Assembly (NCBI GenBank): GCA_903861645.1
Contig: CAIOVE010000017.1
Span: 1 to 62,232 of the forward strand
Length of the DNA: 62,232 nucleotides
From: an uncultured Hyphomicrobiales bacterium
GTDB taxonomy: Bacteria; Pseudomonadota; Alphaproteobacteria; Rhizobiales; Beijerinckiaceae
Reading direction: 5' to 3'
Shown here: in pieces, positions 43,421-59,963 of the stretch
How the letters are laid out: each line of letters starts with the position of its first letter
How positions within the stretch are numbered: the first letter of the stretch is position 1
Program-made: the position numbers and the translations under genes
The notes under the pieces: model-generated
The model's database searches: none
Told to the model about the DNA's origin: nothing
The model's input: only the letters and a program-made list of their open reading frames with translations

Positions 43421-44467
43421 TCAGCGGCGCTCTTCGCGATAGATGCCGAGTTTCTCCTGCGCGGAGCGGTCGGACATGGTGAACACCACCGTATCCTTCG
43501 TCGCGCGCATCTTCTTCCACATCCACGAGGGCACGCAGGCGACATCGCTCTCGCCCGCGGTGAAGGTCTTGCCGTCGATGTCGAAGGCGATCTCGCCTTC
43601 AAGAACGACAAGCGATTGCCCGTCGGTCGAACGAATGGCTTGTGTCTCGAAACCCTTGGGCAGGTGGGTCAACCACGTCGCGATCGTCGGCATGGCCCAG
43701 CCGCCATCCTGGGGATTGACGTAGCGCAGGGCGTGGCCGAGGTGCGGATCGGGCGCGCCCGCGGAGGCGACGCGCATCAGCGCGGGACGCGCGTTGGCGT
43801 AGCGATAGTTGAAGATCGGCGATGTCTGACCGAACGGGCGGCGCGGCTCCATCGGCGCGAAGCCCGAGCCGAACTCGCTTTCCGAATAGCCTTCCGGCTT
43901 CGACAGGATCTGCGACTTGTCGTTGAAGTGGTCCATGAAGGCCGCTTCGTAGAAATTGACCGTGTGCAGATCGAGGCCGTCGACCCAGATCACCGGCTTC
44001 TTTTCTTCCTGGCCGTGATCGTGCCACGTCATCGCGGGCGTGATGACGAGATCGCCGCGGTTCATTGTCGTCTTCTCGCCGGCGACGGCCGTGTAGCCGC
44101 CATTGCCCTCGAGCACCATGCGCAGCGCCGACGCCGTGTGCCGGTGCGCGGGCGCGATTTCGCCGGGCATGATCAACTGATAGCCGGCGTACATGGTGGC
44201 GGTGATGCGCGAGCCGCCGGGCAGGGCGGGGTTTTCCAGCACGAGCACGCGGCGCTCGGCTTCCTCGGCGGTGAGCAGGTCGCCGGCTTCCATCAGCAGT
44301 GGGCGGGCTTCCGCGAATTTCCAGACGTGGGCGGCGAACTTGCTTTTGGGTTGCTCGGGCACGAGGCCTTTCAGCACTTCCCAGAGGGGCGCCATGGCGC
44401 GCGGCGAAAGACGATCATAAAATTTCTGACGGGTGGCTGCGACGTTGTCTGCCGTGGCGGTCTGCAT
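43421..44467 (-). CDS. Gentisate 1,2-dioxygenase-like bicupin
   Basis: A 348-residue, two-cupin iron dioxygenase. The N-terminal cupin has the ligands His108, His110 (APAHRHTASALRM) and the later WHDHG (His149, His151), as in gentisate and 1-hydroxy-2-naphthoate dioxygenases. The family opens gentisate between carboxyl and hydroxyl carbons to maleylpyruvate. A 3-hydroxybenzoate 6-hydroxylase gene, which makes gentisate, lies 2 kb upstream on the same strand with an MFS carrier between them. GGGAGC precedes the ATG. Confidence 0.9.
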   Translation of the reverse strand: MQTATADNVAATRQKFYDRLSPRAMAPLWEVLKGLVPEQPKSKFAAHVWKFAEARPLLMEAGDLLTAEEAERRVLVLENPALPGGSRITATMYAGYQLIMPGEIAPAHRHTASALRMVLEGNGGYTAVAGEKTTMNRGDLVITPAMTWHDHGQEEKKPVIWVDGLDLHTVNFYEAAFMDHFNDKSQILSKPEGYSESEFGSGFAPMEPRRPFGQTSPIFNYRYANARPALMRVASAGAPDPHLGHALRYVNPQDGGWAMPTIATWLTHLPKGFETQAIRSTDGQSLVVLEGEIAFDIDGKTFTAGESDVACVPSWMWKKMRATKDTVVFTMSDRSAQEKLGIYREERR

Positions 44468-44530
44468 GGTGGGCTCCCTGCCTTCTTGAAAGGGCTTGCG
44501 CGGCTTCTACCATCGCTGGCGGTCGCGCGC

Positions 44531-44562
44531 AAAAGAAAGGCCCCGCGTCTGGCGCGGGGCCT
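44531..44562 (-). terminator. Rho-independent terminator after the MFS gene
   Basis: A perfect 10-bp stem (44538-44547 with 44553-44562) and a five-base loop are followed on the minus strand by TTCTTTT. It lies 19 bases beyond the stop of the carrier gene, so the gentisate dioxygenase gene further on probably has its own promoter. Confidence 0.87.
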
Positions 44563-44580
44563 CATGTTCAAAGCGCTGGA

Positions 44581-45843
44581 TCAGGCCTTGCCAACCACAT
44601 CCTTCGGGATCACGAAGACGAAGAGGTTGGCGAGCACGATGGTGAAGGCCATGAAGTAGAAGGCCGACAACAATCCGTAATGATCGGCGATGACGCCGCA
44701 GATCAGCAGGCCGATCGACTGGCCGACCGCCTGAATGGCGAACAGCAGGCCGATGGCGCTGCCACCCATGCCCTTGGGCGTGGCGTCGAGCGTCCAGGCT
44801 TGCAGCACGGCGCGCACGGCGAAGAGGAAAAAGCCGAGCAGCGCGACGAACAGCACAAAGATCGGCGTGCCGCCGGCGAAGACCATCATCAGCAGCACGA
44901 TGGCCGTCATGGCCATGGCCGAGGCCATGATGTTGCGGCGGCCAACCTTGTCGGACATGGCGCCGGCGATCGGCGCGGCGATGAAGCCGCACAATTGCAG
45001 GCTCATCATCACGAAACCCGTGGTGCGCGGCGAATAATGCATTTCGTTGGCGAGGTAGAGCGGCACGAAAACCAGCAACGCGCTTTGCGTCATCGAACGG
45101 AAGGCCGAACTTGTCGACAGCAGCATCAACGTCTTGTTTTGCAGCAGCCCCGCGAAGCCGCGCAGCACGTCGCCGATGGGCAGGGACTTCTCGGACGACT
45201 TGCCCTTTCCCTTGCCGGTCACCTGCATCCTGCCGAGATACCAGAGGATCATCGCCGACATGAAGATGCCGGGTACGACGTTGTAGATCATCACCTGCCG
45301 CCAGGTGAGATCAAAGTGGATCGCCATGCCGCCGATCGCGACGCTGCCCAGCAGCGTGCCGGCGATGAAGGGCGCGACCGCGTCGCCGATGTTGCCGCCC
45401 ATGCCGTGGATCGACACGACGAGACCCTTGCGCTCGGGAAAGCGCGCGGCGAGCGTCGGAATGGCGGTCGGGTGCCACAGCGTGTTGCCGACGCCGATGA
45501 GCACGGCGCAACAAATTAGCAGCCAATAGGCATGGGTATTGGCCATCAGCATGTAGGGAATGCCGATCCAAGCCAGCGACGTCGCCATCAGCAGGCCCTT
45601 GCGGCCAATGGAATCTACAAGGATGCCGCCGGGGATATTGGAGACGGCCGAGGCCAGCGCCTGCGCCGTGACGATGGACGCCGACTGCGTATAGCTAAGC
45701 CCAAGTTCATGACCGATGATCGGCAGCAGGACGTAGAACGTGGCGGGATACCAGTGCGTCAGCGCATGGCCGATCGTGATGACCCAGACCTCGAGAAATG
45801 AGCGTTTTTCGATGGTTTCGGAAGCGGTCGCCACGGCCGTCAT
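44581..45843 (-). CDS. MFS transporter
   Basis: A 420-residue, twelve-helix carrier. Loop motif LVDSIGRKGLLMAT is the MFS signature, with a second in the middle (MSDKVGRRNIM). Its neighbours (3-hydroxybenzoate hydroxylase, gentisate dioxygenase) suggest an aromatic or organic acid, but the sequence alone does not show the substrate. It is distinct from the PcaK-type carrier at 13091. A weak GGGAT site precedes the ATG; upstream is a long CG dinucleotide run. Confidence 0.87.
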   Translation of the reverse strand: MTAVATASETIEKRSFLEVWVITIGHALTHWYPATFYVLLPIIGHELGLSYTQSASIVTAQALASAVSNIPGGILVDSIGRKGLLMATSLAWIGIPYMLMANTHAYWLLICCAVLIGVGNTLWHPTAIPTLAARFPERKGLVVSIHGMGGNIGDAVAPFIAGTLLGSVAIGGMAIHFDLTWRQVMIYNVVPGIFMSAMILWYLGRMQVTGKGKGKSSEKSLPIGDVLRGFAGLLQNKTLMLLSTSSAFRSMTQSALLVFVPLYLANEMHYSPRTTGFVMMSLQLCGFIAAPIAGAMSDKVGRRNIMASAMAMTAIVLLMMVFAGGTPIFVLFVALLGFFLFAVRAVLQAWTLDATPKGMGGSAIGLLFAIQAVGQSIGLLICGVIADHYGLLSAFYFMAFTIVLANLFVFVIPKDVVGKA

Positions 45844-45930
45844 GTGCTAATCCCCTCGCGCGCGCGGAAGCTCTCGCGGCCAATCGAGCCGGGGCGAGTC
45901 CCGCCTGTTCTACTTTCGACTCACGATAAA

Positions 45931-45948
45931 CGCGCGCGCGCGCGCGCG
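45931..45948. repeat. (CG)9 dinucleotide repeat
   Basis: Eighteen bases of alternating C and G lie about 90 bases upstream of the MFS gene and 30 bases after the DoxX stop. Such runs can form left-handed DNA and vary in length by slippage. It sits in a promoter region, so copy-number change could affect transcription; this is inference. Confidence 0.9.
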
Positions 45949-45979
45949 CAATCTCGCTGTCCCACCGCGCCCGATGCCG

Positions 45980-46444
45980 TCAGAGTTCCTTGCCGATCAG
46001 GCGATCCAGCGAATAGGGACCGCCGCCCCGCAAGGCGATCGCGAGGCACATGAAGCCCCAAAGGAGGACATATTCATAGCCGCGATTGAGCCACGAAAAG
46101 CCGTTCGTCCAGTAGAGCCAGGTCAGGAAAGCCATCTCGATGGCGTTGGCCGCGCCGAAAAAACGGGTGAACAGGCCAAGCAAGATGCACAGGCCGCCAA
46201 GCCCCTCAACGAACGTGAGGAAATAGGACAGGGGATAATTGAAGTCGCCAAAAAACGGCGTGGTGGCCATCATGGACTTGGTCTGCGCCTCCATGCCGCG
46301 CATGACCTTGCCATAGCCGTGCACCAGCAGAACCCAGCCGACGCCAATGCGCGTGATCAGCCATGAGAGGGGAATCATCCGGTCATAAAAACCGCGAAGC
46401 CCCGGAATCAGCAGCTTCGGCTCTTCGCCATATTGAATGCCCAT
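45980..46444 (-). CDS. DoxX-family membrane protein
   Basis: A 154-residue protein with four membrane helices; RIGVGWVLLVHGYGKV and FVEGLGGLCILLGLFTR are the DoxX hallmarks. Members support redox homeostasis or thiosulfate:quinone oxidoreductase activity; the role next to aromatic hydroxylases is not known. The ATG at 46444 follows GAGGGG; a longer frame would reach into the hydroxylase gene. It is 52 bases downstream of the 3-hydroxybenzoate hydroxylase gene. Confidence 0.85.
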   Translation of the reverse strand: MGIQYGEEPKLLIPGLRGFYDRMIPLSWLITRIGVGWVLLVHGYGKVMRGMEAQTKSMMATTPFFGDFNYPLSYFLTFVEGLGGLCILLGLFTRFFGAANAIEMAFLTWLYWTNGFSWLNRGYEYVLLWGFMCLAIALRGGGPYSLDRLIGKEL

Positions 46445-46496
46445 GGTCCCCTCCCTCGACGTCGGGGGAGCGTCCAGGCTCCCTCTCGCGACGACA

Positions 46497-47687
46497 TTAG
46501 TCGCCGATCGGCGGCGGATCGTAAAGCCACGCCATCGACTCGAAGGCCTGCTCCATCGTGCGGGCGCCGAGCACCGCGTTGCGCAGATCCCGGGTCGCGC
46601 CGGACGCGTGGTAAACCTCGCCATAGAGCTTGGCGGTCAACTGCACGCGGGCGGTGCGCAGGTAGCGTTCATCGCGATAGGCGAGGAAGGCGGCGGCGTT
46701 ATCGCCCTTGGCGTGGACAAGCTTGCTGGCGAGGCACACCGAGTCCTCGATCGCCATGTTCGCGCCCTGCGCGAGATATTGCAGCATGGGATGCGCGGCG
46801 TCGCCGAGCAGAACGATGTTGCCCTTGCTCCAGTCGCGGATTGGCGGACGGTCGCACAGCACCCACATGCGCCAGCTTTCGATCTTGCCGAGCAGGGTCT
46901 TGACCGGCGCGCAGGCGGCGGCGAACCGTTCGTGCAATTCGGCGGCGTCGCCGAAACTGTCCCAGCCCTCCGAGAACTTGTCGGAGTGAAAGGTCGCGAC
47001 GAGGTTGAACATCTCGCCGCCGCGCACCGGATATTGCACCAGATGGGTTTTCTCGCCCGCCCAGATGACCATCATCTGCCAGCGCAATTCCTCGGGCATG
47101 TCGCTCGTCTTGAGGACGGCCCGATAGGTGATGTGGCCGGACACATTCGGCTTGCCGTCGCCAACGATCTTCTGGCGCACGGTCGACCACAGGCCATCAG
47201 CGCCAACAAGCGCCCGACCCTCGTGCGTGGCGCCCGCCTCGGTCTTCACGACGACCTTGTCGCCGCGGTCGTCGATGTCGACGACCTTGCTGGCGGTATG
47301 CAGTTTCACGAGGTCCGGCTGCTTCTGGCAGGCTTCCAGCAGAACGCGGTGGATATCGGCGCGATGGATGACGCCATAGGGATATTTGAACCGGGCCAGA
47401 AAAGCTTCGTTCAGGGGCAGTGTGGTGACTTCCTCGCCGGTGATGCAATCGCGCATCATCAGCCCCTTGGGATACACCGCGTATTTGTTGATTTCGTCGG
47501 TGATCCCGAGTTTTTCGAACATGCGGAAGACGTTCGGGCCGAGCTGGATGCCGGCGCCGATTTCGCCGAACTCCGGCGCCTGCTCCAGCACGATGCTGGA
47601 GAGGCCCTTGCGGGACAGGGCAAGCGCGCAGGCGAGGCCGCCAATGCCGCCGCCGGTGATGACGAAGGGCAGTGAATTAACGCTCAT
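46497..47687 (-). CDS. 3-hydroxybenzoate 6-hydroxylase-like FAD monooxygenase
   Basis: A 396-residue class A flavoprotein monooxygenase. It has the FAD-binding GGGIGGL at 12-18, the DG motif VGADGLWS and the second FAD block GDAAHPMLQYLAQGANMAIED. The overall sequence and C-terminus (YDPPPIGD) resemble NagX/XlnD/MhbM, which convert 3-hydroxybenzoate to gentisate with NADH and O2. The neighbouring gentisate dioxygenase and FAH-family hydrolase fit this. GGGAGC precedes the ATG. Salicylate or another hydroxybenzoate as substrate cannot be excluded. Confidence 0.88.
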   Translation of the reverse strand: MSVNSLPFVITGGGIGGLACALALSRKGLSSIVLEQAPEFGEIGAGIQLGPNVFRMFEKLGITDEINKYAVYPKGLMMRDCITGEEVTTLPLNEAFLARFKYPYGVIHRADIHRVLLEACQKQPDLVKLHTASKVVDIDDRGDKVVVKTEAGATHEGRALVGADGLWSTVRQKIVGDGKPNVSGHITYRAVLKTSDMPEELRWQMMVIWAGEKTHLVQYPVRGGEMFNLVATFHSDKFSEGWDSFGDAAELHERFAAACAPVKTLLGKIESWRMWVLCDRPPIRDWSKGNIVLLGDAAHPMLQYLAQGANMAIEDSVCLASKLVHAKGDNAAAFLAYRDERYLRTARVQLTAKLYGEVYHASGATRDLRNAVLGARTMEQAFESMAWLYDPPPIGD

Positions 47688-47711
47688 GTCGCTTGCTCCC
47701 GGAAACGCTGA

Positions 47712-48569
47712 TTATGCCGCGCGGACCTTCACCGAAATCGCGCCGAGCTTGTCGATGCGCGCGTCGATCGTGTCGCCCGGAATCACCGGACCAACGCCGT
47801 CAGGCGTGCCGGTCATGAAGATGTCGCCGGGTTGCAGCGTGTAATAGGTCGAGGCCCAGGCGATCAGTTCGCGCACCTTGATCAGCAGGTTGCCGGTGTT
47901 GTTGTTCTGCCGCGGCTGGCCGTTGACGGTCAGCACGAGTTGCAGGCTGTGGGGGTCGCCGATTTCATCGGCCGTCGTCAGCCACGGACCGAGCACCGTG
48001 TAGGTGTCGATGGACTTGCGCATCGAGCGTTCCTCGGGGCCGCGCACGGTCATGTCGAGGCCGATGCAATAGCCCGCGACATAGTCCAGCGCGTTCTCGA
48101 CCGACACATTCCGCGCCGGCTTGCCGATGACGGCGACGAGTTCGATCTCGTGATCGTTGCGGCGGTCGGCGTGGTTGATGACCACGCCCGCGCTCGCGCC
48201 CTGAACGGACGAGGTTGCCTTGAGGAACAGGCCGATGGTCTGGATCTTGACGATTTCCTTGCCGAACCGGATGCCCTCGTCGGCTTCCGCTTCGTCGAAA
48301 TGGGCCTGATAGTTCACAGGCGCCGCGACGACCTTGCCGGGATTCGCGACCGGCGACAGCAGGGTGACGCCCGCCAACGGAATGGACTTCGCGCCCTTCG
48401 CGGCCTCGAGAATTTTGGGGCGAAGCATGTCGATGTTTTCAATAAGCTGATCCGTGTTCGGCAGCGGATAGCGATAGGCCGGCAACGCGTCGAGCGCCGC
48501 GGTCACATCGAGCAGGTGATCGCCCTCGACGAGGCCGAGGCGGTTGTCATTGAAACGGCAGAGCTTCAT
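47712..48569 (-). CDS. Fumarylacetoacetate hydrolase-family enzyme (fumaryl/maleylpyruvate hydrolase candidate)
   Basis: A 285-residue FAH-fold enzyme. The metal ligands are the two Glu in DHEIELVAVIG and the Asp in GLDMTVRG; the C-terminal GDIFMTGTPDGVG is the conserved family end. In gentisate pathways this enzyme cleaves fumarylpyruvate (NagK) or maleylpyruvate. It lies 24 bases upstream of the 3-hydroxybenzoate hydroxylase gene in the same operon, which supports that role. AAGGA precedes the ATG. Confidence 0.88.
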   Translation of the reverse strand: MKLCRFNDNRLGLVEGDHLLDVTAALDALPAYRYPLPNTDQLIENIDMLRPKILEAAKGAKSIPLAGVTLLSPVANPGKVVAAPVNYQAHFDEAEADEGIRFGKEIVKIQTIGLFLKATSSVQGASAGVVINHADRRNDHEIELVAVIGKPARNVSVENALDYVAGYCIGLDMTVRGPEERSMRKSIDTYTVLGPWLTTADEIGDPHSLQLVLTVNGQPRQNNNTGNLLIKVRELIAWASTYYTLQPGDIFMTGTPDGVGPVIPGDTIDARIDKLGAISVKVRAA

Positions 48570-48602
48570 GGCTGGTCCTTGTTTTCCGAGGCATTGAAGG
48601 GA

Positions 48603-49394
48603 TCAGAGCTTGCCTTCGGCGCGCATGCGCCAGAAGTCCCAGGCCCTGTTGATCTGGCTGGAAATGTTGCCGGCGGAGACGCGCGCCTCGCCTTCGGTCA
48701 GGAAGGTCGGCTCGCCGAGCCGCATGGCTTCCGACTGCAAGCGGGCGTTCACCTCGGTGTAAACGGCGCGGAAAACGGCTTCGCGCAGGGTCGGGCCAAC
48801 GCACGTCGAGCCGTGGCCGCGCATCAGGGCGCAGTTGCAACCGCCGAGCTTTTTCGCGAGCGCGGCGCCAAGCCGCGAGTTGGTGATCAGGAGGTCGCTG
48901 CTGTCGCCCGCGTGATCGCGAATTTCGAAGTTTGGCACTTCCTCGCCGAGGAAACCGCTCATATGGCAGATCGGCCGCAGCGGCGAGGATTTGACTACGC
49001 TGAAGGGCACGACGGCTGGCGAATGGCTGTGCACGACCGCCATGACATCGGGCCGCGCGCGGAAAACCTCGGCGTGAATGAAACGCTCGAGATAGACGGT
49101 GCGGCCTTTCGCGTTGACGGGGTTTCCGTCGAAGTCGAACTCGACGATATCGTCGGGCGTCACCAGCGCCGGAGCCATGTTGCGCGCCAGCAGGAAGCGA
49201 TCGGGACGTTTGTCATGGCGCACGCTGACGTGGCCGAAGCCGTCAACAACGCCCTCGCGAAAGAGAATGTGATTGGCGAGCGCCAGTTCCTCGACGAGCG
49301 AACGGCTGGGCGCCTCGCCGACGTCGCCGGTGTCCGCGACCAGCGAGGTGAAAGACTTTCCCTCGCCCGAATGGTTGCTGGCGATTGCGCTCAT
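48603..49394 (-). CDS. Class II aldolase/adducin-family protein
   Basis: A 263-residue zinc enzyme. The conserved pattern is GHVSVRHD, VHSHSPAVVPFS and RGHGSTCVG, giving the three zinc His of the family. Relatives are L-ribulose-5-phosphate epimerase, fuculose aldolase and aromatic decarboxylases. It is the promoter-proximal gene of the gentisate-type operon (33 bases before the FAH gene), so a carbon-carbon cleavage or decarboxylation step in that pathway is possible. It diverges from the TPP enzyme gene. Confidence 0.87.
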   Translation of the reverse strand: MSAIASNHSGEGKSFTSLVADTGDVGEAPSRSLVEELALANHILFREGVVDGFGHVSVRHDKRPDRFLLARNMAPALVTPDDIVEFDFDGNPVNAKGRTVYLERFIHAEVFRARPDVMAVVHSHSPAVVPFSVVKSSPLRPICHMSGFLGEEVPNFEIRDHAGDSSDLLITNSRLGAALAKKLGGCNCALMRGHGSTCVGPTLREAVFRAVYTEVNARLQSEAMRLGEPTFLTEGEARVSAGNISSQINRAWDFWRMRAEGKL

Positions 49395-49533: not shown

Positions 49534-51306
49534 ATGACCGCCAAGGGCAACACAGGGGAGACGTCGCCGCTGGCGCCGGGCGTGGAAGCGCCGCGCGGAG
49601 CGTCGCGCGAAGGCGCTATTTTCGGCAGCGATGTGATGGCGGAAGCCCTTCGCGCCCTTGACGTTCCCTATATCGCGCTCAATCCCGGCGCCAGCTATCG
49701 CGGCCTGCACGACAGCATCGTCAATTATCTCGGCAACGAGAACCCGCGAATGCTTCTGTGCCTGCACGAGGAGCACGCGGTCGCCATCGCGCAGGGCTAC
49801 GCCAAGGTCACCGGCAAGGCGATGGCCGCCGCCGTCCATTCCAACGTGGGCCTCATGCACGCTTCCATGGCGATCTTCAACGCATGGTGCGACCGCACGC
49901 CCGTGGTCATTATCGGCGCGACGGGTTCCGTCGACTCGCAAAAGCGCCGGCCATGGATCGAGTGGATCCATACGTCGCGTGATCAGGCCTCGATGGTTCG
50001 CCATTACGTCAAGTGGGACGATCAGCCGGGCTCTGTTGGCGCCGCGCGCGAATCCATCCTGCGCGCGGGCTGGATCGCCAATACCGCGCCCATGGGGCCG
50101 ACCTATGTCGTGCTCGACGTCGAATTGCAGGAAAAAAGCCAGTCAGAGCAACTGCCGCCCATCGAACCGGCGCGCTACATGCCGCCGGTTTCCCACGGTG
50201 TCGACGCCGGTCAGGTCAAGGCGGCGCTCGACATGCTGCTCGCCGCCAAGCGCCCGCTCATCATGATGGGACGCGTATCGCGGAGCGAAACGGCGTGGGC
50301 GGATCGCGTGGCGCTTGCCGAGAAACTCGGCGCGCGCGTGATCACCGACACCAAGGTGGGCGCCGCCTTTCCGACCGACCACGGTCTGCACGTCGGCGCC
50401 TACGGATCGGGTGGCGCTCAGGATACCTTGCAGGCGATCAAGGAAGCCGACGTCATTCTGAGCCTCGACTGGGTCGATCTCGGCGGCACGCTCAAGACCG
50501 CGCTGGGGACGGAGGAGACCAAGGCCAAGGTCATTCAGGTGACGCTCGATTACGTCATCCATAATGGCTGGAGCATGGACTACATGGCGCTGCCGACCGT
50601 CGACCTGCTGCTGTCGACGGAAACCGACGTCGCCGCCTCCGCCATGGCCAGGGCGCTGGAAGGCAAGCCGTCGAAATTCACGGGCGGCAAGGGGCCGGAC
50701 GCCATCGACCCCGCGCGGGTCGCGGGTCCGATCACCGTCAATCAGACCTTCGCCGCCTTGCGTCATGTCGTCGGCGACAAGCCGGTGTCCCTGTTGCAGG
50801 CGCCGTTGTCCTACAATTCAAAGAGCTGGCACTTCCGGCATCCGCTCGACTACATCGGTTCGGACGGCGGTGGCGGTATCGGCTCGGGCCCCGGTCTTTC
50901 GATTGGCGCCGCGCTGGCGCTCAAGGATTCCGGGCGTTTGGCGATTTCCGTCTTCGGCGACGGCAATTTCCTCATGGGCTGCCAGGCCGTGTGGACGGGC
51001 GTTCATTACAAAATTCCGTTGCTGATCATCGTCTGCAACAACCAGTCCTTCTACAACGACGAGTTGCATCAGGAGCGCATGGCGCGCATGCGCAATCGCC
51101 CGGTCGAGAACAAGTGGATTGGCCAGCGCATGGCCGACCCGGAACTCGATCTGGCGACGATCGCGCGCGGGCAGGGCGCGGTGGGCCTTGGCCCGGTGAA
51201 GGACGCGACGGAACTCGAGGGCGTCTTCAAGGAAGCGCTGCGCGAACTCGAGGCCGGCAAGGTTGTCGTCGTCGACGTGCGCGTGCTGCCCGGTTACGCG
51301 CCCTGA
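49534..51306 (+). CDS. Thiamine-pyrophosphate-dependent enzyme, acetolactate synthase/benzoylformate decarboxylase-like
   Basis: A 590-residue TPP enzyme with the three-domain layout. N-terminal LHEEHAVAIAQGYAK carries the catalytic Glu (79/80), the middle domain is FAD/nucleotide-like in sequence, and the C-terminal GDGNFLMG (from about 474) with CNNQSFYNDE is the Mg-diphosphate motif. It is not paired with a small subunit, so true acetolactate synthesis is unlikely. It diverges from the aldolase/FAH/hydroxylase operon over a 139-base region, and a 2-oxo acid decarboxylase role fits. Confidence 0.88.
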   Translation: MTAKGNTGETSPLAPGVEAPRGASREGAIFGSDVMAEALRALDVPYIALNPGASYRGLHDSIVNYLGNENPRMLLCLHEEHAVAIAQGYAKVTGKAMAAAVHSNVGLMHASMAIFNAWCDRTPVVIIGATGSVDSQKRRPWIEWIHTSRDQASMVRHYVKWDDQPGSVGAARESILRAGWIANTAPMGPTYVVLDVELQEKSQSEQLPPIEPARYMPPVSHGVDAGQVKAALDMLLAAKRPLIMMGRVSRSETAWADRVALAEKLGARVITDTKVGAAFPTDHGLHVGAYGSGGAQDTLQAIKEADVILSLDWVDLGGTLKTALGTEETKAKVIQVTLDYVIHNGWSMDYMALPTVDLLLSTETDVAASAMARALEGKPSKFTGGKGPDAIDPARVAGPITVNQTFAALRHVVGDKPVSLLQAPLSYNSKSWHFRHPLDYIGSDGGGGIGSGPGLSIGAALALKDSGRLAISVFGDGNFLMGCQAVWTGVHYKIPLLIIVCNNQSFYNDELHQERMARMRNRPVENKWIGQRMADPELDLATIARGQGAVGLGPVKDATELEGVFKEALRELEAGKVVVVDVRVLPGYAP

Positions 51307-53343: not shown

Positions 53344-53593
53344 CGATTCCCCCCAATCGTCGGCCCGTCGGCCGGATTTCAGGAATGTAAGCATTGGGGC
53401 CGGCATCCGTCCAGCGATCAAACGTCGGGTGCAACCATCGCGGCTTGGGTCGAGCCATGCATTCCTCGCATTGGCCTCGAATGTTGCTTGCGCACCTTGC
53501 CGGCGCTAGAGAGGGCTGGCCGCTCGATGGAGCTGGCGAATTCAGGGCGAAACGGCGGCGGGGCGCAGACCTCGACGCCGCCGAGGAGGGAAC

Positions 53594-56500
53594 ATGTCCA
53601 TCGCCACCGGCAAATTCAGGATCATTCTGTTCGGCCTCAATCAGGTGCTTCGGCACACCGCGCGCAAATATCCCGAGTTCCGGGCGCGCCTCGCCGAGCA
53701 CGATGTCATCGCCCAGATGCTGGCGCGCGACGAGGAGGTTGGCCGCTGGTTCCAGATCAAGGGCGGCGCGTTGACGAGCGGCGCTGGCCTGCATCCCCGG
53801 CCGGACATCACGATCGCCTTCAAGAACGCGCGACTCGCCGCCGAACTGCTGACGCCGCCCTTCAATTGGCTGAACCAGATCAACGCCCAGAAGGACTTCA
53901 CCATGACGGTGGAGGGCGACGACGGGTTGCTCAACTGGTTCGCGCAGACGGTCATGCTGACCCAGAGCATCGGCGCCGACATGGGCATTCCGCAGGCCGA
54001 TGGCTCCATCCGCTATTGCAATATGGCCAACGGCGGTCCGCTGTTTGTCTATGTGAAGGACGGAAAGATCATCCGCACCACGTCGATCGATTTCGACGAC
54101 AACGATCCCCAGCCCTGGACCATCGAGGCCAAGGGCGTGAAGCTGACGCCGCCGCGCCGCACGACCCTCGCGCCGCACGGGCAGAATTCCAAGGCGATGG
54201 TCTATTCGCCCGACCGTCTTCTGTATCCGATGAAGCGCGTCGACTTCGATCCCAAGGGCGAGCGTAACCCGCAAAACCGCGGCAAGTCCGAATACGTCCG
54301 CATTTCCTGGGACGAGGCGCTGGAGCTCGTTTCAAGCGAGATCAAGCGCACCAAGCAGACCTACGGGCCCGGCGTCATGGCCGTGTCGCATGGCTCGCAT
54401 CACACCTGGGGCAACATCGGCTATTACCTCAGCGCGCTCTATCGTTTCCGCAACGCCGTGGGCCATACCGCCGTCCATCACAATCCCGATTCATGGGAAG
54501 GCTGGTACTGGGGCGCCGCCCATCACTGGGGCTATTCGCTGCGCGTCGGCCAGAGCGAGACCTACGGAACGGTCGAGGACTGTCTGCAAAATTCCGACAT
54601 GATCGTCTTCTGGTCCGCAGACCCGGAGACGACGTCGGGCTCCTATGGCGCGCAGGAAGGAACCGTGCGGCGTCAATGGCTGAAGGATCCCAAGCTCGGG
54701 ATCAAGATCGTCCATATCGACCCCTTCTATAACTCGTCCGCGCAGTTCCTGCCCGGCAAGTGGATGGCGCCGCGACCCACGACCTCCGTCGCGATGGCGA
54801 TGGCCATCGCCTACGTCTGGATCAAGGAAGGCCTCTACGACAAGGATTACGTCGCGACCCACACCGTCGGCTTCGACAAGTGGAAAGCCTATGTCATGGG
54901 CAACGAGGACGGCGTGCCCAAGACGCCGGAATGGCAGGAGGCCGAAACCGGCGTGCCCGCCAAGGACGTGCGCGCGCTGGCGCGCGAATGGGCCAGCAAG
55001 CGCACCTATCTGGCGCCGGGCGGCTGGGGCAATGGCCACGGCGGCGCGTGCCGCAACCAGACGGGCATCCAGTGGGCGCGCGTGATGGTGTGCCTCATCG
55101 CCATGCAGGGCCTTGGCAAGCCGGGCGTCAACATGGGCAACCTGCAATGGGGCTGCCCGGTCGACCTCAATTTCTATTTCCCCGGCTACGCGGAAGGCGG
55201 CATGTCCGGCGACATCGAGGGCACCTCGCTGCCGGTCGAGCTCTATCAGCGCATGCCGCAACTGCCGACGATGAACACGTCGAACCAGAAGATTCCACGT
55301 ATCTTCATGCCCGAGGCCATCCTCGACGGGAAGGCCGAGGGCTATCTGTGGAATGGCAAGTCCATCGAACACCAGTTCGCCAAGGTGAGCTATCCGGCGG
55401 CGGGCCACGCCCCCGTGCGCATGCTCTACAAGTATGGCGGCTCGATGATCGCGACGATGAACAACACCAATCGTCACGTGAAGATGTATCAGTCCGAAAA
55501 TCTCGAATTCGTCGTCAACCAGTCGATCTGGTTCGAGGGCGAGGCGAAATTCGCCGATCTCATATTGCCTGCCTGCACGAATTTCGAACGTGTCGATATT
55601 TCCGAATGGGCGGCGCTTGGCGGCTATGGCCACCACGGCCAGCAGCAGGTCAACAACCGCGTGGTGATCTTCCAGGCGCCGGCGATCAAGCCACTTGGCG
55701 AGTCAAAATCCGACTACTGGATCTTCACGGAAATCTGCAAGAAGCTTGGCTTGTCGAACTACTTCAACGAGGGCATGAACGAGATCGACTGGGTCAAGCG
55801 CCAGTTCGAGGCCTCCGACCTGCCCAAGCACATCTCGTGGAAGAAATTCATCAAGAAGGGCTACTTCGTCGTTCCGACGGAGAAGGAAAAATTGCGCGCT
55901 CCCGTGTCGTTCCGCTGGTTCTGGGAGAACCGCAAGAAGGACGTGCCGGAGCCCCTGCCGCTACCCTCCGATTATTCGAGCGAATATCTCAAGGGCCTGC
56001 AGACCCAGTCCGGCAAGCTTGAGTTCGAGTGCAATTCGCTCATCCGCGCGAAGGATCCCGAGCGTCCGCCGATCGTCAAATACGAGCCCTCGTGGGAGGG
56101 GTCGCATTCCGGCGAGATGTTCGAGAAGTTCCCGCTGCAACTCATCACGCCGCATTCCAAGTATTCCTTCCATACGCAGGGCGATGGCAAGGACTCCTAC
56201 CTGATGAACATCGAGGATCATCGCATCAAGGTCGGCGACTGGTACTACTGGATCATGCGCATGAATCCGGAGGACGCGGCCGAGCGCGGCATCAAGAAGG
56301 GCGATCTCGTCAAGGTTCATAACGACCGCGGCGCCGTTCTCTGCGCCGCCATGCCCACGGCGCGCCTCGCGCGCGGCGTCGTTCACGGCTATGAATCCTG
56401 CGCCATTTACGCGCCGATGGGCGAACCCGGAAAGTCCATTGATCGCGGCGGCTGCCTGAACTTGCTGACGCCGCATCGCACGCAGACCAAGTCGACCCAT

Positions 56501-56644
56501 TCGCTCGCCGGCGCCAACGCGCTCGTCGAGGTCGAGCTCTGGGATGGCAAGATCGAGCACATGTCGGAGGCCTTCGCGACCGCTTCGCCCGCCGCGCAGG
56601 CCATCATCACGCAGCGGTTCTCCGAACTCGCGCCCGCCACGTAA
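53594..56644 (+). CDS. Molybdopterin transhydroxylase-like large subunit with N-terminal SCP2-like domain
   Basis: A 1016-residue protein. Residues about 130-1000 resemble the large subunit of pyrogallol-phloroglucinol transhydroxylase of Pelobacter (DMSO-reductase family, MGD cofactor, no N-terminal iron-sulfur cluster): [40 protein letters not shown] (Asp299, Ser300 as probable Mo site), [23 protein letters not shown] and the end [13 protein letters not shown]. Residues 1-125 are an extra domain resembling SCP2 ([17 protein letters not shown], then [15 protein letters not shown]). No Tat signal is present, so it is cytosolic. GAGGAGGG precedes the ATG. The small subunit follows after 66 bases. 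The substrate is unproven. Confidence 0.88.
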
Positions 56645-56710: not shown

Positions 56711-57547
56711 ATGTCCAAATGGAACATGATCATCGACGTCGCCGAATGCACGAACTGCCATCTGTGCACGCTCGCGACATCGGACGAATACGTCGGCAAT
56801 GAATTCAAGGGATATTCCGCGCCCATGCCCAAGCACGGGCATAAGTGGATCGACATTCTCAAGAAGGAGCGCGGGCAGGGCACAATGATCGACATCGCCT
56901 ACGTGCCCACCATGTGCAACCACTGCGACGACGCGCCCTGCCTCAAGTCCGCGCGCGACAGCGCGGTGAGAAAGCGCGACGATGGCGTCGTGCTCATTGA
57001 TCCCGTCAAGTCGAAGGGGCAGAAGCAGATCGTCGACGCGTGCCCCTATGGCCACGTGTGGTGGAACGAGGAATTGCAAATACCGCAGGCGTGGAATTTC
57101 GACGCGCATCTGCTCGATGCCGGCTGGAAGCAGACCCGCGGCGGACAGGTTTGCCCGACGGGCGCCATGAAGGCGGTGAAGCTCGACGACGCGGACATGG
57201 CGGCCCGCGCCGCCGCCGAAGGACTCGAACAAATGAAGCCGGAACTCGGCACGAAGCCGCGCGTCTGGTATCGCAACCTCGCGCCGTTCAAGACGGCCTT
57301 CGTGGGCGGCAGCGTCGCCAGGATCGTTGACGGGCTTGTCGAATGCGCCGAGGGCGAAACCGTCGCGCTCAGCAAGGACGGCAAGGAAGTGGCGCGACTG
57401 ACGACCGACAATTACGGCGATTTCAAATTCGATGGCTTGCCGGAAAATTCCGGCGCCTATGTCGTCGAAATCAGGTCGGCGGGCGGCGCCAAACGTGTCG
57501 ACGTCGTGGTAAAGGATAGCGTTAGCCTCGGCGAAATCAGGTTGTAG
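56711..57547 (+). CDS. Iron-sulfur small subunit of a transhydroxylase-like molybdenum enzyme
   Basis: A 278-residue partner of the preceding subunit. The ferredoxin half has CTNCHLC (Cys13, 16, 19), CNHCDDAPC (69, 72, 77), CPYG (111) and CPTG (148). The C-terminal 80 residues (KAFVGGSVARIVDGLV-type start to GEIRL) form the transthyretin-like domain known from the Pelobacter small subunit. Compared with that protein as I recall it, Cys23 is Thr and the KCTMC pair is replaced by Trp128 and Asp131. Eight cluster Cys remain, enough for at most two [4Fe-4S] clusters. GGAGAG precedes the ATG. Confidence 0.88.
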   Translation: MSKWNMIIDVAECTNCHLCTLATSDEYVGNEFKGYSAPMPKHGHKWIDILKKERGQGTMIDIAYVPTMCNHCDDAPCLKSARDSAVRKRDDGVVLIDPVKSKGQKQIVDACPYGHVWWNEELQIPQAWNFDAHLLDAGWKQTRGGQVCPTGAMKAVKLDDADMAARAAAEGLEQMKPELGTKPRVWYRNLAPFKTAFVGGSVARIVDGLVECAEGETVALSKDGKEVARLTTDNYGDFKFDGLPENSGAYVVEIRSAGGAKRVDVVVKDSVSLGEIRL

Positions 57548-57578: not shown

Positions 57579-58664
57579 ATGCGAACAACATTGCGGTCCT
57601 CTCTATGCGTCGCCGCCGCGATGGCGTTCTTGTTCGTCACCGGGCGCGCGCCCGCCGCGGCTGATGGCTATTTCGCCGGCAAGACGATCACGATTCTCGT
57701 TGGCGTCGGCGCTGGCGGCACGGTCGACACCTTGACGCGCGGCTTCGCGCAATATCTGCGCGCGCACCTCAGCGGCGCGCCCAATATCCTCGTGCAGAAC
57801 ATGCCGGGCGGCGCCGCCGTGGTCGCGACGAACTATCTCGCCGAACGCGCCAAACCCGATGGACTGACGTTGCTGTTTGGACCGTGGGATCCACTATTGC
57901 AGGCGCTCAACGCGTCGACCCTGCGCGCGCGCTACGACCAGTTCGCCTATATCGGCGGCGTCGGCGACATCAGGGTTTTGTACGCGCGAACGGATGTCAT
58001 TCCCGGCGGGCTGAAGACGCCCGCCGACATCGTCAAGGCGAAGGATCTCGCGCTGGGCGCGCTGAACGCCAGCGATTATTCCGGCCTTTTGCCGCATCTG
58101 GCGCTCAACGAACTCGGCGTCTCCCATCGCTACGTGCTGGGCTATCCCGGCGGCAACGAGGTGTTTCTCGCGATGCAACGCAACGAGACGCAGTTTCATT
58201 CAACGGCGATCTCGACGTTTCGCGGCCGCACGGCGCCCTTCATCAAGTCAGGCGCGGGCATGGCGATCGCCTATCTCACGCCCGTCCAGGCCGATGGCTC
58301 GTTTGAACGCGTGGCGGGCATCGACGACATGCCCGCGTTTCCCGATCTTTACCGCGAAATTTTCGGCCGCGCGCCCTCGGGCGCCAACTGGAATGCGTTG
58401 AACTGGCTCACGCGCGAGGCGGGCGAACTCACCTTCGCCATGTTCGCGCCCCATGGCGCGCCCGACGCCGCCGTGGATGAACTGCGCCGCGCCTACGCCG
58501 CGGCTGCCAACGACCCGGAGTTCATTCGCAAGACGACCGAGACAAACGGGCTGGCCTATACTTACGTCGATCCTGCCAAGGGCGCGGCGATCTTCGGCGA
58601 TCTCGCCAACGCCCCGCCGGCGGTCATCGAAACCCTCCGCGCCGATATCGAACACTATCGCTAG
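57579..58664 (+). CDS. Bug/TctC-type periplasmic substrate-binding protein
   Basis: A 361-residue secreted Bug protein, 31 bases after the transhydroxylase small subunit and probably in the same transcript. It has a signal peptide to about residue 29 (PAAADG), then YFAGKTITILVGVGAGGTVD and QNMPGGAAV. It is longer than average (about 320) and closest in layout to the pair at 5747 and 6809. GGAGG precedes the ATG. Linkage to the Mo enzyme suggests that it senses or delivers that substrate. Confidence 0.87.
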   Translation: MRTTLRSSLCVAAAMAFLFVTGRAPAAADGYFAGKTITILVGVGAGGTVDTLTRGFAQYLRAHLSGAPNILVQNMPGGAAVVATNYLAERAKPDGLTLLFGPWDPLLQALNASTLRARYDQFAYIGGVGDIRVLYARTDVIPGGLKTPADIVKAKDLALGALNASDYSGLLPHLALNELGVSHRYVLGYPGGNEVFLAMQRNETQFHSTAISTFRGRTAPFIKSGAGMAIAYLTPVQADGSFERVAGIDDMPAFPDLYREIFGRAPSGANWNALNWLTREAGELTFAMFAPHGAPDAAVDELRRAYAAAANDPEFIRKTTETNGLAYTYVDPAKGAAIFGDLANAPPAVIETLRADIEHYR

Positions 58665-58742: not shown

Positions 58743-59963
58743 ATGCCGATGACCGCCACGACCACTGAAAGCACTGACGATCGCGCGCGCCGCGATGGTT
58801 TTATCGACGCCCGCGGTCGCCGCGAATTCTCGGTCGTCGCCCTGAGCAGTCTGCTCTTCTCGATCACGACCACCCATTCCACGCTGGTCGCCGTCGCGCT
58901 GGGCCATGTCGGCTATTCCCTGCAAACCATCGGCGTTCTGATCAGCGCCGTCGGCGTCACCGCGCTCGCTGCCACGCTTGGCTCGGGCTTCGTCGCGGCG
59001 CGCCTGGGCGCCGTTGGCGCGTTTCGCCTCGCCATGGCGCTCGCCGCCATCGGCGTCGCCTCGCTCGCCGTCACGCGCGACATGTTCTGGCCCGCCCTTG
59101 TCTCGCGGCTGGTGTGGGGCGCGGGCGTGGGCCTGTTTCTCGGACCCGTGAATCTCTACATCCAGAGCCGCATCAACAAGGCGCGGTTCGTTTATCTCGT
59201 TACCGCTTTTTCCTCGACCATTCCGCTCGCGCTCGCGGTCGCGCCGCCGGTCGGCGAATGGGTCATGAATCATTTTGGCGAAACGGCCTTGTTCATCGAG
59301 GGCGGCGTGCCCGCCGCGCTCGCCTTGCTCATCACCATCGGTATCCGGCCCCTGCCGCCGCCGCCCCGGCCAGCCGGGCTCGGCATCGCCGCCGCGTGGC
59401 GTGGCTGGCATCCCTTGCCCGTCGCGACCCTCGTGCTGGGTGGCGCGCAGTTCGGTTATGTCGCCTCCTATCTCGCGCCGGAATTGCGCGAGCAGGGCAT
59501 CACGCTCGGCTGGTTCTTCATTCCCATGACCATCGTGATGATCGGTTGCCGCGTGGGCGCCATGCGTCGCCTCTCGGCGCTGCATCCGCGCACGCTGGCG
59601 GCGAGCGGCCTCATCACCGGCGGCCTGTCGCTTGCCGCGGCGTCGGCGGCGTCGCTCGCGGGACCGTGGATGGTCGTGCTGGCCGGCGCGTTGCTCGGCT
59701 ATGGCAATTCCATGATGTTTCCGATCATGTCGGCGTGGCTGGGGCGATGGGCCAACCCGGCCGAGGGGCCGGGCGTGCAGGCCATCGTTTCGACGGCCTT
59801 CTATTTCGGCATTTACTGGACGCCTTCGCCCATCGCCGGGGTCATCGAACTTGGCGGCTTCAGGGGCGCGGAATGGCTGCTCGCCCTTTCCGGTGTCGTG
59901 CTGGGCGTTTGGTTGATCGTCTCGCGCGTCGATGGCGGCTCGGACAAATCGCGCGCCGCCTGA
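58743..59963 (+). CDS. MFS transporter
   Basis: A 406-residue carrier with twelve hydrophobic helices. The first loop (GSGFVAARLGAVGAFRL) is a degenerate MFS motif, and the central loop is short and Pro-rich (PLPPPPRPAGLG). The substrate is not evident. It follows the Bug gene by 78 bases with no terminator, so it is likely part of the transhydroxylase operon. A second ATG at 58749 is an alternative start. It ends seven bases before the convergent Bug gene. Confidence 0.85.
   Translation: MPMTATTTESTDDRARRDGFIDARGRREFSVVALSSLLFSITTTHSTLVAVALGHVGYSLQTIGVLISAVGVTALAATLGSGFVAARLGAVGAFRLAMALAAIGVASLAVTRDMFWPALVSRLVWGAGVGLFLGPVNLYIQSRINKARFVYLVTAFSSTIPLALAVAPPVGEWVMNHFGETALFIEGGVPAALALLITIGIRPLPPPPRPAGLGIAAAWRGWHPLPVATLVLGGAQFGYVASYLAPELREQGITLGWFFIPMTIVMIGCRVGAMRRLSALHPRTLAASGLITGGLSLAAASAASLAGPWMVVLAGALLGYGNSMMFPIMSAWLGRWANPAEGPGVQAIVSTAFYFGIYWTPSPIAGVIELGGFRGAEWLLALSGVVLGVWLIVSRVDGGSDKSRAA

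Follow-up and report, generated by a model that had tools for sequence, protein, structure and literature searches.

An SCP2-like domain fused to a transhydroxylase-type molybdenum enzyme in an uncultured Hyphomicrobiales bacterium and its relatives

A contig of an uncultured Hyphomicrobiales bacterium of the Beijerinckiaceae (CAIOVE010000017.1, assembly GCA_903861645.1; its positions 1 to 62,232, the whole stretch analysed here, are referred to as the window) encodes the large subunit of a molybdenum enzyme that carries an unusual N-terminal extension. The gene (53594..56644, plus strand) has an ATG start, preceded at a distance of 3 bases by a likely ribosome binding site read directly from the sequence (gaggaggg, 53583..53590, plus strand), and its product of 1016 amino acids combines an SCP2-like domain with a hydroxylase of the molybdenum bis(pyranopterin guanine dinucleotide) type (Mo-bisPGD) from the transhydroxylase/resorcinol hydroxylase group. 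A fold of the lipid-carrier type is unexpected within a molybdenum hydroxylase because this group is known for small, water-soluble phenols. Both the fusion and the fold are confirmed by the analysis described below.

The molybdenum-containing part of the protein has the features of the RhL/PgtL subfamily over its full length. Residues 139-986 align with residues 5-870 of the 875-residue large subunit (PgtL) of the Pelobacter pyrogallol-phloroglucinol transhydroxylase (chain 4v4c_A, E 6e-287 by phmmer against PDB), which is the best match among solved structures and is followed by trimethylamine N-oxide and dimethyl sulfoxide reductases at E 1e-77 and weaker. Pfam recognizes in this region the domain PF21423, "Pyrogallol hydroxytransferase large subunit-like, domain 1" (residues 148-202, 54035..54199, plus strand, E 9e-24), the molybdopterin oxidoreductase domain PF00384 (residues 208-717, 54215..55744, plus strand) and the molybdopterin dinucleotide-binding domain PF01568 (residues 848-965, 56135..56488, plus strand). 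The SCP2-like domain (residues 1-125, 53594..53968, plus strand) and a linker that ends where the 4v4c homology begins (residues 126-138, 53969..54007, plus strand) have no counterpart in 4v4c according to phmmer. An earlier note on this DNA, made from the sequence alone, had described an N-terminal addition of about 125 residues that the Pelobacter enzyme lacks; the addition is real and, at about 138 residues, slightly longer. The source genome (4.18 Mb in 108 contigs) encodes a single enzyme of this kind, two further matches of 27-29% identity covering only part of the Mo domain.

The assignment of the N-terminus to SCP2, for which the earlier note had quoted motifs that correspond to residues 70-85 and 102-110 of the window protein, is borne out by structure prediction, structural searches, profile-profile comparison and weak Pfam matches in relatives. 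Modelled by AlphaFold2 with an alignment of 77 N-termini of fused proteins (alignment A3), the domain reaches a predicted local distance difference test score (pLDDT) of 90.1 and a predicted TM-score of 0.80. Its helices (H) and strands (E) are predicted in the order H3-25, H27-33, E38-44, E49-56, E59-64, E72-76, H79-86, H92-100, E104-108 and H110-125, and this helix-helix-four strands-helix-helix-strand-helix topology is that of the SCP2 superfamily. Structural matches to the predicted model agree with it: ranks 1-35 of a Foldseek search against PDB (E between 3e-6 and 7e-3, TM-scores normalized by query length reaching 0.60) are occupied by 10 alkylsulfatase chains, 3 YjcS chains and 22 chains of SCP2, UbiJ-SCP2, AF1534 or SCP2-like proteins, and the first unrelated protein, a methyltransferase, appears at rank 36 (E 0.014). 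The best of these matches (E 3e-6 to 6e-5) are the alkylsulfatases SdsA1 and Pisa1, which carry PF14864 at their C-terminus; we take the matched region to be this C-terminal SCP2-like domain and the YjcS chains to belong to the same family. SdsA1 and Pisa1 provide a precedent for an SCP2-like domain on an enzyme of amphiphilic substrates but, unlike the window enzyme, they have it C-terminally on a hydrolase of the metallo-beta-lactamase type.

Comparison of A3 with an alignment of 27 PF02036 proteins by hhalign gave a probability of 95.2 and a P of 2.8e-8 over 108 columns, as opposed to a P of 0.056 for the best of 22 decoys, which comprised 11 segments cut from the Mo part, 10 versions with shuffled columns and the SCP2 alignment in reverse. 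Among subsets of the SCP2 proteins, 14 with a shared motif scored highest (probability 87.7); the short SCP2 proteins reached 78.9, another group defined by a motif 13.6 and two UbiJ-like proteins 0.2. NCBIfam, consulted for three subset proteins, names one member of the best group UbiT, places one of the UbiJ-like pair close to UbiJ below the cut-off and has no name for one of the short SCP2 proteins. Fold and profile homology are common to the window domain and UbiT, UbiJ, AF1534 and SCP2 (PF02036); SCP2 domain proteins are mostly free-standing, whereas the window copy is fused and lies under the Pfam and NCBIfam thresholds. Across the 77 N-termini, Pfam finds a weak PF02036 match in 16 (best E 0.0018), compared with 5 for the next family and 2 for the C-terminal family of alkylsulfatases.

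The searches with the window copy itself would be in line with a merely accidental resemblance to SCP2. Pfam reports no PF02036 match for it, which places it below the curated SCP2 cut-off, and only a chance match to LRV_2; residues 1-135 have no NCBIfam match at E 0.01, including UbiT (NF047962) and UbiJ (NF047938), and the same residues, alone or as the A3 profile, give only chance matches to PDB sequences. Since the fold and profile comparisons succeed, these negatives point to divergence. An accidental resemblance is also contradicted by the decoys of the profile comparison and by a free-standing relative of the extension, and we consider it extremely improbable. Such relatives are encoded in frames of 123-248 codons (L196-L221 and L222-L231), and one of them, L230, passes the Pfam SCP2 cut-off (23.0 vs 21.3 bits), which lends transitive support to the SCP2 homology of the extension. 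Among 28 free-standing cousins, Asp46 is found in 25, Arg51 in 24 and Trp115 in 21 (with 5 gaps); Lys100, invariant across the 77 fused copies as Arg51 and Trp115 also are in the fused domain, is found in none. Read by eye, some of the genes near the cousins are presumably recG, an oxyR-like gene, HU, rubredoxin and its reductase, and, at L227, ubiC-ubiA. At another locus (L126:609-2481), a free-standing SCP2-like protein adjoins a gene whose product resembles linalool dehydratase/isomerase (PF18566, 41.4 bits).

The joining of the SCP2-like extension and the Mo part in one chain is a genuine fusion. An assembly artefact is contradicted by the presence of the extension, in the same single frame, in 107 of 122 open reading frames (ORFs) of the family, several of which represent one place fetched twice. 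The remaining 15 ORFs include L063, which lies at a contig end, L158, which is split by an insertion, and 13 (10 distinct) that truly have no extension; contig ends account for its absence in both L063 and L012. The split gene L158, from Sinorhizobium terangae, was considered as an extension-free copy and rejected, as its extension lies about 1.5 kb upstream and the gene is interrupted, the extension not having been lost. On this plasmid (pCB3126_1, L158:10076-14538), an ORF of 371 amino acids, which by its look we take to be an IS110-type transposase, sits between the two domains.

The extent of the fusion was assessed in several samples. In a scan of contigs, relatives at E 1e-3 were encoded in at least 535 of 596 candidate stretches. 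The 80 best loci, which were carried forward, are a set biased towards the extension, as the scan used two search patterns and one of them falls inside it. The closest named locus among these 80 is L033 of an uncultured Rhizobiales bacterium (92%). Searches with the whole window protein as query are less biased. In the order to which L104 (an uncultured Sterolibacterium) belongs, 399 genomes yielded 6 matches, with at most two candidates scored per genome, and all 6 begin at query residue 3-7. Of the 8 plasmid matches listed above 50% identity, all begin at residue 5-8 except one, which is the split gene L158. Samples of the class and the phylum, with at most 10 candidates scored per genome, give lower bounds: in the class, the A3 profile has matches in at least 14 of 387 genomes, of which 12 encode fused proteins (frames of 993-1044 amino acids) and 2 have short frames, and in the phylum at least 25 of 398 genomes match it at 27 places, one being that of the window and the other 26 being short frames (123-248 amino acids). 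The gene is an accessory one, a family member above 700 bits being present in 10 of 50 genomes searched of the same genus. The fusion is widespread and old, and from the Alphaproteobacteria to Moorella and Dehalococcoidia it is standard in its clade, so the local novelty implied by the earlier note does not stand. Moorella (G532) and a Dehalococcoidia genome (G533) each encode both kinds of enzyme, with and without the extension; in Moorella sulfitireducens, the two copies lie about 7 kb apart (L106:10001-12964 and L106:20291-22822).

The distribution of the extension in a tree of the Mo part is accounted for by one gain. The tree comprises 108 rows (106 of the family and 2 of the outgroup, after removal of duplicates and of cores shorter than 600 residues); L033 stands in for the window, which is itself no row, 13 rows are labelled as having no extension, and L063 and L158 are unlabelled. 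All 93 extension rows fall on one side of a single branch with a support of 100 in the Shimodaira-Hasegawa-like approximate likelihood ratio test, and none of 500 label shuffles scored as low. The Pelobacter enzyme forms the next branch out, followed by the Dehalococcoidia copy and copies from the phylum of Moorella, all without the extension; the tree method was a quick one and long branches were flagged, which leaves the immediate sister less certain than the occurrence of one origin.

The residues aligned with the catalytic ones of PgtL are conserved, and one position near the Mo site has changed. Ser300, His269, Asp299 and Tyr532 of the window protein align with Ser175, His144, Asp174 and Tyr404 of PgtL, of which Ser175 is the Mo ligand and the other three are catalytic. 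In the extension clade, counted here as 96 rows with the window, the split L158 and the contig-cut L063 included, the residues aligned with PgtL His144, Ser175, Trp176 and Tyr404 are kept in all rows and Asp174 in 95, and serine-ligated Mo catalysis as in PgtL is well supported by these aligned residues. PgtL position 153, which lines the pocket, is Arg in PgtL and Lys or Arg in all five near relatives that have no extension. In the extension clade it is occupied by Trp (9) or His (1) in the 10 basal rows and by Tyr (83), Trp (2) or His (1) in the 86 derived rows; the window has Tyr278 in place of the Lys or Arg that serves here as an informal mark of a PgtLS-type transhydroxylase.

A second departure from PgtLS is seen in the small Fe-S subunit, which is encoded 66 bases downstream (56711..57547, plus strand) and whose 278 residues align end to end with residues 1-274 of PgtS (4v4c_B, E 4e-66). 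The window small subunit keeps 8 of the 12 PgtS cluster cysteines and reads CCCT CCCC WDGC at these positions, so it does not have the full set of cysteines for three [4Fe-4S] clusters seen in a PgtLS-type transhydroxylase. Thr, Trp, Asp and Gly stand in place of PgtS Cys23, Cys126, Cys129 and Cys145, which, going by the usual ferredoxin-type ligand pattern, we assign to one cluster. In a comparison of 99 distinct small subunits, PgtS included, Trp or Tyr and Asp replace Cys126 and Cys129 (CxxC to WxxD) in 79; among these, Cys23 is kept in 22 and lost in 57, Cys145 is kept in 17 and lost in 62, and 78 have a complete set of the 8 ligands for the two remaining clusters. PgtS and 19 others retain all 12 cysteines. 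These 19 belong either to basal extension rows (among them Moorella, Chloroflexi and Myxococcota) or to rows that have no extension; at loci of the derived branch, no small subunit that was found has the CxxC motif. Because basal rows have the domain together with all 12 cysteines, the domain was gained first, and one Fe-S cluster site was lost later, in the derived (Pseudomonadota) branch of about 85 rows.

These changes would suit an enzyme in which the SCP2-like domain binds a quinone that accepts the two electrons of hydroxylation and so replaces the Fe-S wire of the small subunit. According to PMC6747719, the SCP2 domain of UbiJ binds hydrophobic ubiquinone intermediates. The replacement of Cys126 and Cys129 in each of the 79 distinct small subunits located in the derived branch or among its kin, with the other two clusters almost always intact, and the gain of the domain before the loss of the cluster also agree with such a role. 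However, members from Moorella and Dehalococcoidia keep the full set of clusters along with the domain. Furthermore, the clusters of PgtLS may sit too far from Mo to matter, in which case their loss may mean nothing. Quinone reduction in place of the Fe-S wire is thus, in our view, improbable.

We propose, with moderate confidence, that the locus encodes a two-subunit Mo-bisPGD phenol hydroxylase whose N-terminal SCP2-like domain is a hydrophobic-ligand or membrane-facing module. The enzyme, a member of the RhL/transhydroxylase group and presumably cytosolic, would hydroxylate a phenolic ring without O2, with the hydroxyl derived from water or moved from another phenol. The SCP2-like domain would capture a poorly soluble phenolic or quinone and pass it to the Mo pocket of the same chain. 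We infer the binding of a ligand by the domain, the identity of this ligand with the substrate and the reaction itself; a carrier role is suggested by the SCP2 fold, the change at position 153, the porin context of some relatives and the precedents of UbiJ and UbiT. The latter, also an SCP2 protein, accompanies the O2-independent hydroxylases UbiU-UbiV (PMC6747719).

The porin context comes from 6 of the 8 plasmid relatives (Cupriavidus, Sinorhizobium, Burkholderia, Ensifer, Paraburkholderia and Salipiger; 53-59% identity), which are not independent since they represent four tree lineages (L170; L157; L158 and L168; L167 and L169); the Cupriavidus and Sinorhizobium regions, being unannotated, were read by tblastn. 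Within 12 kb of the Mo enzyme, fumarylacetoacetate hydrolase (FAH) and VOC-family genes are present in all six, and an acyl-CoA synthetase and a porin (OmpW in 2, FadL/TodX in 3) in five each. An alkylresorcinol substrate may be guessed from this cluster; a search of the literature by titles and starts of abstracts gave nothing to the point. The new substrate class that the earlier note had suggested is only partly supported, by the difference at position 153 in near relatives and by the porins, the ligand itself being putative.

The acyl-CoA synthetase genes, present in five of the six plasmid loci, could also be read as a sign that the SCP2-like domain binds acyl-CoA or a CoA-thioester substrate, as the earlier note had envisaged. 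Pfam tallies of neighbouring genes, for which ORFs were picked by a simple rule and two sets were scanned (118 of the 161 ORFs eligible in one, 84 of the 344 in the other), include enoyl-CoA hydratase (6/118 and 3/84) and acyl-CoA dehydrogenase (4/118) among the commonest families, alongside TctC receptors (5/118) and FAH (3/84). The neighbours are mixed, though, genes of CoA metabolism are common in bacterial genomes, and the catalytic pocket retains the free-phenol residues of PgtL. A CoA-bound substrate receives no specific support from these data and is very unlikely.

Several observations weigh against the proposed carrier of a hydrophobic substrate. Neighbours beyond the small subunit are not conserved: that family alone is common, being detected by tblastn in 84 of 95 sequences (L110 and L181 being the same place), compared with 14-16 for FAH queries, 1-13 for VOC, 2 for OmpW and 1-2 for FadL. 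Porins were found neither in the 80 genome loci by tblastn, a search that is weak for such proteins, nor among the window genes scanned. At position 153, six far relatives without the extension have Pro, Ala or Leu, so Lys or Arg is not general for enzymes that have no such domain. The full-length model is poor near the active site, with a pLDDT below 50 at residues 268-276 and 297-321. As stated in PMC10100899, the substrate of RhL (the resorcinol hydroxylase RhLS of Azoarcus anaerobius), a member with PgtL of the RhL/PgtL subfamily of Ser-ligated MopB enzymes, is resorcinol; both reference substrates of the subfamily, resorcinol and pyrogallol, are small soluble compounds. The characterized enzymes RhL and DbhL may carry the same domain; RhL itself probably does, judging from the 6 of 6 matches in the order that includes L104. 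In that case the substrate need not be greasy, and membrane docking or quinone handling would be as likely as the capture of a greasy substrate.

The enzyme may accordingly be an ordinary RhL/DbhL-like hydroxylase in which the domain serves as a scaffold or docks to the membrane through its hydrophobic first helix and has no part in the choice of substrate, which we regard as possible but rather doubtful. The shared subfamily of RhL and PgtL and the occurrence of the extension in the order of L104 fit this explanation, as does the strong hydrophobicity of helix 1, whose 19-residue Kyte-Doolittle maximum averages 1.29 and reaches 1.6 in 18 of the 77 fused copies. Resorcinol- and alpha-resorcylate-hydroxylating activities are, moreover, reportedly membrane-bound. 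In simulations, the SCP2 domain of UbiJ touches the membrane (PMC9499169). On the other hand, helix 1 of the window protein scores only 1.09, and free-standing UbiT-type proteins score 1.75, 1.72 and 1.27, two of the three exceeding the fused average, so that helix 1 is no special evidence for docking. The difference at position 153 that sets the extension-bearing enzymes apart from near relatives lacking the extension also suggests a change of substrate.

In the window, the Mo enzyme is flanked by transport genes. Directly downstream of the small subunit is a gene for a tripartite tricarboxylate receptor-like protein (57579..58664, plus strand; TctC, 24.0 bits, under the cut-off of 27), possibly on the same transcript, followed by one for a major facilitator superfamily (MFS) transporter (58743..59963, plus strand). 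Upstream lies a gene for a thiamine-pyrophosphate enzyme (49534..51306, plus strand) that resembles two families, benzoylformate decarboxylase and acetolactate synthase, without reaching the cut-off of either. A gentisate-type set for aerobic ring cleavage occupies 43421-49394 on the minus strand, about 4-10 kb upstream; it includes an MFS transporter and encodes gentisate 1,2-dioxygenase (43421..44467; TIGR02272, 443.6 bits, cut-off 442.1), 3-hydroxybenzoate 6-monooxygenase (46497..47687; NF006021, 528 bits, cut-off 459), an FAH-family protein (47712-48569) and a class II aldolase family protein (48603-49394). Any link of this set to the Mo enzyme is putative. A pyruvate-dehydrogenase-E1-type gene was considered as a sign of the hydroxyhydroquinone pathway and dropped: it occurs in only 8 of 95 sequences, among them four close kin and the single place represented by L110 and L181.

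Among known systems, PgtLS (AthLS) of Pelobacter acidigallici (4v4c), which catalyzes a redox-neutral hydroxyl transfer, shares with the window enzyme the large-subunit homology, the Mo-ligand serine, the residues His144, Asp174 and Tyr404 and the small subunit, but is free of an SCP2-like domain and has all 12 cluster cysteines and Arg in place of Tyr278. The nearest characterized function is probably that of RhLS and of DbhLS, the 3,5-dihydroxybenzoate hydroxylase of Thauera aromatica AR-1. Pyrogallol hydroxytransferases of Chloroflexi and aquifer bacteria are mentioned in PMC3971608, PMC4959651 and PMC5264521; the word SCP2 is absent from the accessible text of these three, of PMC10100899 and of PMC12366328. 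No published fusion of this kind was found in literature covered by title and start of abstract, a coverage that leaves most subscription papers outside and amounts to no proof.

The fusion gives gene products annotated just as molybdopterin-dependent oxidoreductase a testable lead on their substrate or location. With the fold, the change near Mo and the loss of an Fe-S site in hand, it becomes testable how RhL-type hydroxylases find their substrate and dispose of electrons. A bolder possibility, which we regard as a long shot, is that gaining the SCP2-like domain converted a transhydroxylase of redox-neutral type into an oxidizing hydroxylase working at the membrane, where a lipid-like phenol or quinone would be held next to Mo, the Fe-S wire would become dispensable, and one of its clusters would have been lost in the Pseudomonadota branch. 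If true, the enzyme would be a molybdenum counterpart of UbiT plus UbiU-UbiV, hydroxylating rings without O2 and having the lipid carrier built into the same protein.

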